Source: Treponema sp. (GTDB lineage Bacteria; Spirochaetota; Spirochaetia; Treponematales; Treponemataceae). From it: a stretch of 64,000 nucleotides of DNA. A model generated the notes under the pieces. The model searched no databases. It saw only the letters and a program-made list of their open reading frames with translations, and was not told the DNA's origin. How positions within the stretch are numbered: position 1 is the stretch's first letter; each line of letters opens with the position of its first letter. The DNA lies in the NCBI GenBank assembly GCA_016286365.1, contig JAEESN010000006.1, positions 62,001 through 126,000 on the forward strand, given 5' to 3'. Positions 9,374 through 50,038 of the stretch are shown here, in pieces. A program made the position numbers and the translations under genes.

Positions 9374-10375
9374 CTATTCCTTTTCTGCCGAAAGCTCCTG
9401 AATCTGAGATAGAGTAAGCCCTGTAGCTTGAGCAATCTGCTCTTTACTACAAAAATTCATCTTAAGAAGATTTTTAGCAGTTTCAATCTGGTTTTCTCTT
9501 TTACCTTTTTCAATTCCTTTTTCAAGTCCCTTTTCAATACCTTTTTCAATTCCTTTTTCAAGTCCCTCTGCAATGCCCTGTTCAAAACCTTCTTTTCGTC
9601 CTAATTCCAATCCTACTTTTTTCCCTTCCCTTATGGCGGCATTTTTCATAGTTAATTCATCTGAAACATGCATCCAATAACGAGATTCATGGTACCAGTT
9701 AAGTTCATCCTGACTTATGTTTTTTAATACAGTGAATGCCATTTTAATGCCTCCATTAATTTTGATTAATTCCTGAATAAATTCTTTTTTTTCCGGGACA
9801 GATGCATATAAAAAGAATTTACCCCACATTTGTGCTTTCGTCAACTTTTGAACATTATCTTCCAGGGTTGCAATTTTGGGAAGTTCCATGAATATGACAT
9901 TCAGAGATTTAGAAATTGTTTTTCCCTCATCATTTTTTAAAACATAATGACTGATGCTTTTTTTTGTTGCTTTGTCAAAAACAAAGTTCATAACCGAAAT
10001 TTGAAAAACATCTGGGATTTTATCCCAATCAGTTCCTTTTGGAGTATAATGATTCAAAAGGTGCGCAACATGGTATTCTGCCCGCTTCCCATAATCATTA
10101 CAATGATTTTCACCCTGCATCTCTATATTTGCAATTTTCCCATCAATTTTGCAGTTAATATCAAATTCTGACTGCTTGTCTGTGATGCATTCTCCAGAAA
10201 GCTCATTAGGCTGCAAAACGACATCTGTTACATTACGCTCAAGAATATCACACAAAAAACAAGTTAACGCTTCATGAGCTTGCCTTGATTCATCTGTAAA
10301 CAGAATTTTGAAAATCGGATCTGCACATGGATTTAATAATGCTTTAGAATTTGGCCGGAAATTTGTTTGTACCAT
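9374..10375 (-). CDS. Rpn family recombination-promoting nuclease / putative transposase
   Basis: 333 residues from the ATG at 10375, chosen because AAAGGAAG lies 7 bases upstream; the frame stays open to 10480 but lacks such a site. The N-terminal part is the PD-(D/E)XK nuclease domain of the Rpn family: FKILFTDES, then FDINCKID and IEMQGE carrying the acidic D...E-x-Q catalytic residues. The C-terminal third has a run of degenerate G-(I/L)-E-K-G repeats (about residues 265-300), as is usual in this family, and ends in a small helix-turn-helix-like tail with EQIAQATGLTLSQIQ. Family members are DNases that stimulate RecA-independent recombination. No terminal repeats are visible, so it is not flagged as an active element. 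Confidence 0.85.
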   Translation of the reverse strand: MVQTNFRPNSKALLNPCADPIFKILFTDESRQAHEALTCFLCDILERNVTDVVLQPNELSGECITDKQSEFDINCKIDGKIANIEMQGENHCNDYGKRAEYHVAHLLNHYTPKGTDWDKIPDVFQISVMNFVFDKATKKSISHYVLKNDEGKTISKSLNVIFMELPKIATLEDNVQKLTKAQMWGKFFLYASVPEKKEFIQELIKINGGIKMAFTVLKNISQDELNWYHESRYWMHVSDELTMKNAAIREGKKVGLELGRKEGFEQGIAEGLEKGIEKGIEKGLEKGIEKGKRENQIETAKNLLKMNFCSKEQIAQATGLTLSQIQELSAEKE

Positions 10376-45988: not shown

Positions 45989-46060
45989 AGGTCCGTAGGA
46001 GAGTCGAACTCCTGTTGGCTGGATGAAAACCAGCTGTCCTAACCGTTAGACGAACGGACC
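45989..46060 (-). tRNA. tRNA-Glu (TTC)
   Basis: Minus-strand cloverleaf. Acceptor GGTCCGT/ACGGACC, anticodon stem GCTGG/CCAGC with loop TTTTCAT, T-stem AGGAG/CTCCT with loop TTCGACT. CCA is not encoded. It is the last of five clustered tRNA genes, and T residues follow. Confidence 0.93.
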
Positions 46061-46066
46061 ATATAG

Positions 46067-46153
46067 CGGAGAGAGAGGGATTTGAACCCCCGATAGCGTT
46101 ACCGCTATAACAGCTTAGCATGCTGCCGCATTCGGCCTCTCTGCCATCTCTCC
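46067..46153 (-). tRNA. tRNA-Ser (GCT)
   Basis: 87 nt with a long variable arm (TAGCG-GTAA-CGCTA). Acceptor GGAGAGA/TCTCTCC, anticodon stem GCAGC/GCTGT with loop ATGCTAA, discriminator G, T-loop TTCAAAT. It is second from last in the tRNA cluster. Confidence 0.92.
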
Positions 46154-46159
46154 ATAAAG

Positions 46160-46234
46160 GTGGGCGTACCAGATTCGAACTGGTGAACTCTTGATCCACA
46201 ATCAAGCGCGTTAGACCTCTCCGCCAACGTCCAC
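46160..46234 (-). tRNA. tRNA-His (GTG)
   Basis: Anticodon stem CTTGA/TCAAG with loop TTGTGGA. The 5' strand GTGGACGT faces ACGCCCAC, which gives the extra G-1:C73 pair of tRNA-His; one A-C mismatch is seen within the acceptor stem. T-stem ACCAG/CTGGT. Ends are placed from the G-1 pair. Confidence 0.88.
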
Positions 46235-46243
46235 ATGTATAAG

Positions 46244-46317
46244 AGAACTGGATGGGATTCGAACCCACGACTAGTAGTTTTGCAGACTACCCCCTTTGGC
46301 CTCTTGGGTACCAGTTC
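46244..46317 (-). tRNA. tRNA-Cys (GCA)
   Basis: Acceptor GAACTGG/CCAGTTC with T73, as usual for Cys. Anticodon stem GTAGT/ACTAC with loop CTGCAAA, D-stem CCC/GGG, T-stem GTGGG/CCCAT with loop TTCGAAT. Confidence 0.92.
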
Positions 46318-46320
46318 TAT

Positions 46321-46393
46321 CACGCGCATTAGGCTTCGAACCTAAAACCTTCGGTTTTGGAGACCGATGCTCTACCAACTGAGCTATACGCGT
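46321..46393 (-). tRNA. tRNA-Trp (CCA)
   Basis: Acceptor ACGCGTA/TGCGCGT with one G-U pair, D-stem GCTC/GAGC, anticodon stem TCGGT/ACCGA with loop CTCCAAA, T-stem TTAGG/CCTAA with loop TTCGAAG, discriminator G. It is the first of five tRNA genes, 7 bases after the end of the XRE gene. Confidence 0.93.
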
Positions 46394-48187: not shown

Positions 48188-48991
48188 CTAAATCCCCAGT
48201 AGTGTAAATCTGACTGCGTCGACAATTCCGTGGCTTATCATGGCGGAGGTGATGTCGCGCTTTGTTTGAAGGAGGGCGAATGGGAGACCAAAAAGAACAC
48301 AGAGCATGAGGGTCGGAGTAAGATCATAGCCGTGGATAACAGTGTGCGGAACAATCATCATAAAATACATGGTGATGATGTCGAAGAGGTTCATCTTTTT
48401 TGAATCACCGGTGGCTGCATCCGCGTTGTTATTCTGAGGCTTGCTTTCCACACTCACACAATAAACACAGAAGGCCATGAAAATTGCACGGCAGGCCATC
48501 TCTTCGTATATGGCGGGATTAAAGCAGATCAAAAGCTTTAGAAGGCTGAATTGAAAGTTCACCTGCTGACGGGAAATCAGTATGTTTATGACAGAAAGGA
48601 TTGCGCCGGACAAAATTGCAATCAGAATGCTGATTAAAGGTGACATCCTTGTCTGGCGCGAAAGAAGTTTATAATCCTTGTGTTTTTGCATGACAGAGAA
48701 AACTGCAAAAGATGAAAGAAGTGTCGGGATCCCGGCTCTGAGCCCGTAAATCAGGATGAAAGGATTTTGCTGATAGCCGAAGTATGCGACCATCGAAAGG
48801 ACTGCAAAAATCACAGAGATGATTACGTATTTTCTGGACGGAAGCCCATTTTTAATAAGCAGAAAAATTGAGAGAGCCAAAGTGATGAGCGCAAGGCCGA
48901 GCCAGTAAGGAGAATTGTCACCTTTTACCACAAGCCTGAATGCCAGAAGGATAATAAAGCAGATCCATAAAACGATGTTGTGTTTTTTCAT
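48188..48991 (-). CDS. CPBP family intramembrane metalloprotease
   Basis: 267 residues with about eight hydrophobic segments. The protease motifs are IYEEMACRAIFMAF (E-E-x-x-x-R, about residue 163), VPHTVIHGY, and SAMISHGIVDAV (final His). Family members cleave prenylated or leaderless peptides and include bacteriocin self-immunity proteins. The loop near residue 190 is hydrophilic and Asn/Asp-rich. No cognate peptide gene is adjacent. Confidence 0.84.
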   Translation of the reverse strand: MKKHNIVLWICFIILLAFRLVVKGDNSPYWLGLALITLALSIFLLIKNGLPSRKYVIISVIFAVLSMVAYFGYQQNPFILIYGLRAGIPTLLSSFAVFSVMQKHKDYKLLSRQTRMSPLISILIAILSGAILSVINILISRQQVNFQFSLLKLLICFNPAIYEEMACRAIFMAFCVYCVSVESKPQNNNADAATGDSKKMNLFDIITMYFMMIVPHTVIHGYDLTPTLMLCVLFGLPFALLQTKRDITSAMISHGIVDAVRFTLLGI

Positions 48992-49080: not shown

Positions 49081-49386
49081 GGGATTTTACATAAATTCCT
49101 GGCGCCGGAAGGGCAAAATTTATGTAATTCTACAGAAATCCGGCGCAAAAATGGCTGCAAATTGTTCGATTTACATAAATTCTTCGCGCCGAGAGGGAGA
49201 AATTTATGTAATTCTGCGGGGATTAAGCCGGCGCGATGGCAGGATGAATGGGGATTTTACATAAATTCCCGGCGCCGGAGGGGTGAAATTTATGTAATTC
49301 TGCGGGGATTAGCCGGCGCAATGGCAGGACGAAGTGGGATTTTACATAAATTCTACGCGCCTTGAGGGAGGAATTTATGTAATCCT
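49081..49386. repeat. Four tandem ~85-bp repeats, each with an inverted repeat
   Basis: Units begin near 49085, 49169, 49255 and 49340. Each contains TTTACATAAATTC, a GC-rich core with GGCGCCGG or GCGCC, then AATTTATGTAATTC, so each can form a hairpin with a GCGCC loop. Between the hairpins GCGGGGATTAGCCGGCGC is also repeated in the middle units. A weaker trace lies at about 49050. The 474 bases from 48992 to 49465 hold no convincing gene. Confidence 0.8.
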
Positions 49387-49465: not shown

Positions 49466-50038
49466 TCAAAGGAAAATCTCTTGGTCCATAAAGTCATCAA
49501 GCTTAGTACCTTCCCAGCGTTTTGAATCTTTATTCGCTTCTTTGAGTTTTCCGATCAAAGCACGAGATATATCATCTTTAAGAAGTTCACCTGAATGACC
49601 ACCGTGCCATTTGATAAAGATATCCTTTTCAAAATTTTCTGCGCGCATATTTTTTTCTTTAGAAAGATCATAGGCGTCGAAAATCATCATGTCTGCATAA
49701 TGATATTTTTTCCCATCTTTGCGCCAGCTTTCATCTTCATATGCTTCGGAAATAAATTTACCGACCATGGCAACGCCGTCATTATCAGTTCCTACCTGAA
49801 GGAGGATGAACATGTCGTTTGGCTTGAGCTCTTCCCATTCATAAACTGACCAGTCAAAGTTGCTAGGATACTGCTCTTTCTTTACATGTTTTACAATGTC
49901 GAGATGTTCCTTCATCTTATAAGATGATATTGCCGGATTCCAGCGTAAGATATAAACATTCATTTTTTCACCTCCTTCTAAAATCTTTTTCATGCTGTCG
50001 GTAAAATATTCTGCGGGTTCAACATAATCCAATCCCAT
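49466..50038 (-). CDS. PUA/EVE-like domain protein
   Basis: 190 residues from 50038, or 165 from an ATG at 49963. Both have good sites: GGAGG before 50038 and AAGGAGG before 49963; the conserved-looking part begins at 49963 (MNVYILRWNPAISSYKM). The pattern WEELKPNDMFILLQVGTDN followed by VAMVGKFISEAYEDESW resembles the PUA-like EVE fold, which often binds modified bases. The start at 50038 lies 3 bases from the stop of the HIRAN-like gene, so the two form an operon. Confidence 0.55.
   Translation of the reverse strand: MGLDYVEPAEYFTDSMKKILEGGEKMNVYILRWNPAISSYKMKEHLDIVKHVKKEQYPSNFDWSVYEWEELKPNDMFILLQVGTDNDGVAMVGKFISEAYEDESWRKDGKKYHYADMMIFDAYDLSKEKNMRAENFEKDIFIKWHGGHSGELLKDDISRALIGKLKEANKDSKRWEGTKLDDFMDQEIFL

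Follow-up and report, generated by a model that had tools for sequence, protein, structure and literature searches.

Phased arrays of bipartite palindromes in a Treponema genome and their link to a family of nuclease-like proteins

Results

The window, by which we mean the whole 64,000-nucleotide stretch of Treponema sp. DNA analysed here, contains four 41-bp bipartite palindromes of the form TTACATAAATT-N19-AATTTATGTAA between positions 49087 and 49382. They occupy 49087..49127, 49171..49211, 49257..49297 and 49342..49382, with no assigned strand. The second lies 84 bp (8.0 turns) past the first, the third 86 bp past the second and the fourth 85 bp past the third, so the latter two centre-to-centre spacings deviate from 84 bp by 2.0 and 1.0 bp. 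Tandem Repeats Finder reports a period of 85, and the palindrome pattern, present four times in the window, was absent from all 100 dinucleotide shuffles. The four tandem repeats of about 85 bp described in an earlier note on this DNA are thus real, and its observation that the arms are more conserved than the cores also holds: the four units share identical 11-bp arms, while their 19-bp centres vary. Three spacers of 43, 45 and 44 bp fall within 49128..49341, a range that also holds palindromes 2 and 3, and spacer sequences are not alike from array to array. A 41-bp bipartite palindrome with a 43-45-bp spacer after it describes the unit better than an "85-bp hairpin repeat" does.

The array is upstream of a minus-strand gene (48188..48991) whose start codon, at 48991, is 96 bp from the array edge. 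A Pfam Rce1-like match to its product (E 6e-4, below cut-off) gives weak support to a CPBP/Rce1-like membrane protease, in line with the CPBP protease of the earlier note, and leaves that name provisional. On the other side, a minus-strand gene at 49466..50038 has its 3' end toward the array and matches nothing in Pfam, NCBIfam or PADLOC; Pfam lends no support to the "HIRAN-like" label that had been given to the other neighbours. Elsewhere in the window are a minus-strand cluster of five tRNA genes (45989-46393) and a tandem repeat of 12/36-bp units, CCTTTTTCAATT (9502-9585).

A search of the complete assembly of this organism (2.68 Mb, 35 contigs) with the core pattern TTACATA...TATGTAA recovers 30 palindromes, every one of them inside one of six arrays; the reversed-pattern control recovers none. 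The arrays lie on contig 5 (seven sites), contig 12 (six), contig 19, which is the window (four), and contig 29 (three arrays of five, four and four). TTACATA is invariant across the 60 half-sites, and no isolated copy with up to 3 mismatches is present in this genome. Start-to-start spacings are 84-86, 95 or 74 bp, save at two shortened end palindromes. The earlier note had taken identical arrays at many sites as the mark of a general repeat rather than a local system. The arms do recur, in six arrays, but the spacers mostly differ, and we therefore view the arrays as a multi-locus system and not a generic repeat.

Spacer length is kept even where spacer sequences are unrelated. All spacers on contig 12 are 54 bp long, and five of six pairs give no alignment signal. 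Two paralogous arrays on contig 29, C29b and C29c, are identical at 87/88 arm positions and at 154/206 of the remaining positions, with length unchanged. In the contig 12 array and in the C29b and C29c arrays, changes in one arm have no counterpart in the other. The conservation of arms and spacing, the divergence of spacers and the uncompensated arm changes together argue for selection on protein sites, not on hairpins. Two paralogous arrays (L013:5369-5662 and L013:8172-8465) lie in direct orientation 2.5 kb apart, both spaced 84, 95 and 74 bp.

The contig 5 array (L011:7382-7991) shares its arms with the window array. It adjoins a gene (contig 5, 62531-63346) that encodes a protein of 272 aa, with 35 bp between array and start codon. 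This protein matches no Pfam family at E 0.01 and no NCBIfam family at E 1. An AlphaFold2 model (pLDDT 89) predicts a long helix, a hairpin, a second long helix and a nuclease-like domain. Foldseek matches to the model are weak (best E 8e-3); many are of PD-(D/E)XK type, including Bax1, MunI, XisH, and cap-snatching and R2 endonucleases. In fold comparisons of the C-terminal part, the homing endonuclease I-Bth0305I scores Z 8.7 (VIA, 89 residues), Bax1 8.0, TnsA 7.8 and Vsr 6.9; the helical N-terminal part returns higher Z values that have little meaning. PADLOC matches the C-terminal domain to the end of the candidate defence protein PDC-S68 (E 6e-24, profile positions 1088-1218 of 1221). Judged by sequence and predicted fold, the contig 5 protein belongs to an uncharacterised family whose C-terminal domain is probably PD-(D/E)XK/Vsr-like. 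Residues R160-S-K-S-E164, P199-D200-F201 and E215-H216 (RSKSE ... PDF ... EH) are invariant in 52/52 proteins; catalysis therefore seems to matter, and a purely regulatory reading of the family may be wrong.

Homologues of the contig 5 gene are found in 28 of 98 genomes of the genus, in up to nine copies per genome. We examined 53 loci and dropped one (L146) as a duplicate of another (L039). An array adjoins the gene at 48 of the 52 distinct loci, upstream at 45 and downstream at three (L095, L110 and L120). Four loci show no array: L114, for which only 197 bp of upstream sequence is available, L121, L127 and L131. Shuffled upstream regions never reached the array threshold in three rounds. 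Arms differ among paralogues unless the proteins are closely related; the half-sites of 42 loci share a frame, approximately T-W-C-V-B-A-Y-A, with C4 in 38/41 and A7 in 38/42. The gene stands alone: no neighbouring gene family recurs in more than four of 39 loci. Type II restriction-modification was rejected as an explanation, as no linked methyltransferase was found and the recurrent neighbours, inspected by eye, are not methyltransferases. The stretch that separates array and start codon contains no excess of TATAAT-like hexamers.

In a sample of 149 genomes from the phylum, full-length family members occur only in the genome of origin, and four other matches are C-terminal domains of frames longer than 1100 aa. 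Relatives were also found on eight viral contigs, all of them lacking an array; those whose frames were translated again proved to be the C-terminal parts of ATPases. One homologue of 267 aa stands alone on a human faecal contig with a phage label (L155, MT839528.1), and no array accompanies it. In some syntenic comparisons the gene and its array have changed more quickly than the DNA around them, for example with flanks at 91-92% identity, the gene at 69-74% and the array not alignable. Between L129 and L134, and between L042 and L138, both syntenic, the nuclease-like gene and array have diverged far beyond the flanking DNA; in the syntenic pairs L112/L119 and L135/L137, gene and array do not diverge faster than the flanks.

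The sites within arrays are spaced by whole turns of the helix. Across 45 upstream arrays, 132 centre-to-centre spacings cluster at 63, 74, 84, 95, 105 and 126 bp. Among periods of 7-16 bp, the best fit to these spacings is 10.50 bp (R 0.914, near-zero offset), and none of 2000 random spacing sets fits as well. Counting only the 88 spacings that are distinct within a locus gives R 0.889. This period places the sites on one face of B-form DNA.

Arm similarity climbs with protein identity, from a mean of 0.44 at 30-35% identity to 0.83 above 70%, a relationship that none of 300 permutations reproduced. Arm base 6 is predicted best by residue 43, which lies in a predicted strand (39-45) of the beta-hairpin. 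Base 6 is G at 10/10 loci with Ser or Thr at residue 43 and at 1/30 loci with other residues (Fisher 1.3e-8, with the Ser/Thr grouping chosen after the table had been viewed). Among 2398 residue-class tests this pairing ranks best, with a Jaccard index of 0.857; the next residue reaches 0.45. With the hairpin left out of tree building, residue 43 changes class on six of 78 branches, and base 6 changes on those six and on one other. Five loci with doubtful register (L041, L115, L118, L143 and L144) were left out of the arm-frame table, and two with a doubtful base (L124 and L125) were left out of the tree test. Nine loci outside the table (L118, L125, L041, L144, L143, L115, L110, L057 and L181) agree with the pairing by eye. 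This co-evolution points to the family protein as the reader of the arms, and it is a stronger tie between the two than adjacency.

Remote arrays are a general feature that extends beyond the window. The second paralogue in this genome, on contig 31, has arms TTACGGACG, of which there are 19 exact sites; these make up the gene's own upstream array and three remote arrays. In another genome (G131), 17 exact sites carry the arm TACGGCTAA; they lie next to the family gene and in at least two further places among those listed. Most remote arrays are upstream of at least one gene, and one (L175) lies between convergent gene ends. An AraC-type regulator, a conceivable alternative binder, adjoins one remote array. 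Genes for CPBP/PrsW-type proteases are found near remote arrays in three species (window:48188-48991, L177:3681-4526, L178:2154-2948 and L059:5076-5894), with names assigned by Pfam for the window and by eye for L177, L178 and L059. The arrays of the window, L177 and L059 are directly upstream of such a gene; the cases are few and the recurrence is odd.

The arms themselves are nearly private to the genome. The exact pattern occurs in one of 97 genomes, that of origin, and is absent from 96 relatives. A collection of 84,980 species genomes yields four single matches, and viral contigs yield none. Matches in relatives with up to 3 mismatches are single and at control level, except in G229 and G008. 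A looser core search of 200 genomes of the genus recovered TTACATAGAA arms at spacings of 146-157 bp in two species. Arrays of the same plan with wholly different arms, TTACGGCTAA and TTCCGACAA, emerged from loci already under study and 40 stretches of 20 kb chosen at set positions; the TTCCGACAA array is directly behind a gene homologous to the neighbour gene of the contig 5 array. An exact scan of the 40 sampled stretches found one array of the window kind, which adjoins a family gene, and one other repeat, in L100; shuffles gave none. Repeats of other sorts were also seen: a tandem repeat (L100:15910, period 166) that includes a short palindrome and differs in kind from the window arrays; a conserved, REP-like palindromic element (TTACATAAGAACCGGGC...) in three species (G178:C4:55876, G035:C102:6825 and G113:C8:87157); and dispersed, MITE-like 41-bp palindromes with a conserved core (G169:C50:281, C58:155 and C58:791).

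Discussion

The window array is probably a remote binding array of the nuclease-like protein encoded on contig 5. We make this assignment because the same arms flank the contig 5 gene and because the family is linked to private, phased, co-evolving arrays. No remnant of a nuclease-like gene was found near the window array, and for this reason we consider it a genuine remote array. Among the roles that the earlier note had offered for the repeats, that of protein-binding sites is strongly supported by whole-turn spacing and by residue-base co-evolution with a specific protein family. We infer strongly, from comparisons across the family, that a family protein binds the arms.

In the arrangement that we envision, a homodimer would read both arms with its coiled-coil/beta-hairpin N-terminal half, and two nuclease-fold domains would sit over the variable 19-20-bp centre. 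Neighbouring dimers on one helix face could then stack into a cooperative complex. At the parental array such a complex may autoregulate the nuclease-like gene; at remote arrays it may mark or regulate neighbouring loci, as with the CPBP gene by the window array. We advance this division of roles between parental and remote arrays tentatively, at somewhat short of even odds. A regulatory nucleoprotein complex is our first choice and programmed cleavage or homing our second. Three features count against simple operators: the three downstream parental arrays, the array between convergent gene ends (L175) and the lack of a promoter signal between array and gene.

The arrays could instead be targets of cleavage or recombination. 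The protein would then be a nuclease of homing-like or selfish character that cuts within the variable centres, and the remote arrays would act as targets or donors in its spread or in gene conversion. The nuclease-type residues conserved throughout the family, a homing endonuclease as the closest catalytic fold (with TnsA and Vsr also among the matches), the multicopy and patchy distribution, and the rapid divergence of gene and array in some syntenic pairs would all fit. We nevertheless consider this unlikely. A homing gene interrupts its site, whereas every parental array presents intact targets beside the gene, and homing has no need for whole-turn phasing of many sites. The spacers of remote arrays are also largely unrelated, so these arrays are not recent copies. 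A defence or toxin-like nuclease, sequestered by its own chromosomal arrays and freed under stress or infection, is less probable again. The private, diversifying specificities and the resemblance of the C-terminal domain to the end of PDC-S68 speak in its favour, but the gene stands alone and has no known defence partner.

Two readings assign the repeats no dedicated protein, and we regard both as very improbable. Repeats of MITE or REP type that are scattered through the genome and do nothing for the host would account for the several dispersed copies and for the paralogous C29b and C29c arrays; they sit poorly with arms and spacing conserved around unrelated spacers, with the absence from this genome of isolated copies at up to 3 mismatches and with tight linkage to one gene family. 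RNA or cruciform hairpins acting as small RNAs, terminators or mRNA stabilisers, a possibility also raised by the earlier note, seem less credible still. The arms can pair, and several single units fold better than shuffles, though only because the arms are complementary. Against a hairpin stand the uncompensated arm changes, a spacing that tracks the 10.5-bp DNA helix and the lack of any Rfam match at the arrays. A CRISPR array was rejected: the repeats are bipartite with variable centres, and no cas gene was seen by eye beside the arrays.

The arrays and their protein family have partial parallels in known systems. Arrays of the iteron and parS type place multiple sites in helical phase for cooperative assembly; the present system differs in its protein, in the spread of its sites across chromosomal intergenic regions and in the private arms of each paralogue. 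The EDxHD homing endonucleases, represented by I-Bth0305I, carry a C-terminal Vsr-type nuclease domain, to which the C-terminal domain of the present family may correspond by fold match, and I-Bth0305I is described as a dimer on a very long target of about 60 bp (PMC3943268). Unlike them, the present family has no intron, its N-terminal half is a predicted coiled coil with a hairpin, and its palindromes are uninterrupted, forming phased arrays both next to the gene and at remote places. The PDC-S68 candidate defence proteins of PADLOC have a homologous C-terminal domain; they are about 1200 aa long, and the present family has only their last ~130 aa. KfrA, an alpha-helical coiled-coil DNA-binding plasmid autoregulator that acts on a repetitive operator, is similar by description in its combination of coiled-coil protein and repetitive sites (PMC7783346). 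A nuclease domain, as predicted for the present family, is not mentioned for KfrA in the abstract of that account (PMC7783346).

More broadly, we lean towards the view that these loci form a chromosomal addressing system, in which multicopy nuclease-fold proteins with an evolvable beta-hairpin reading head recognise private phased arrays both near their genes and at a distance, and in which a change of specificity in the protein goes with one in the arms, much as in an arms race. A literature search, largely of openly available papers, found no description of such a system. If this view is correct, one genome would hold several mutually independent address systems, and otherwise mysterious intergenic arrays would be accounted for. 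It would connect a family of proteins that has no name yet with the DNA it targets across dozens of genomes and offer a testable residue-to-base rule, in which a Ser or Thr in position 43 specifies G as arm base 6. The family may thus be a naturally occurring library in which nuclease-like domains come with matched protein-DNA specificities, and it raises the question of why a bacterium would keep several private, fast-diversifying nuclease-like address systems.
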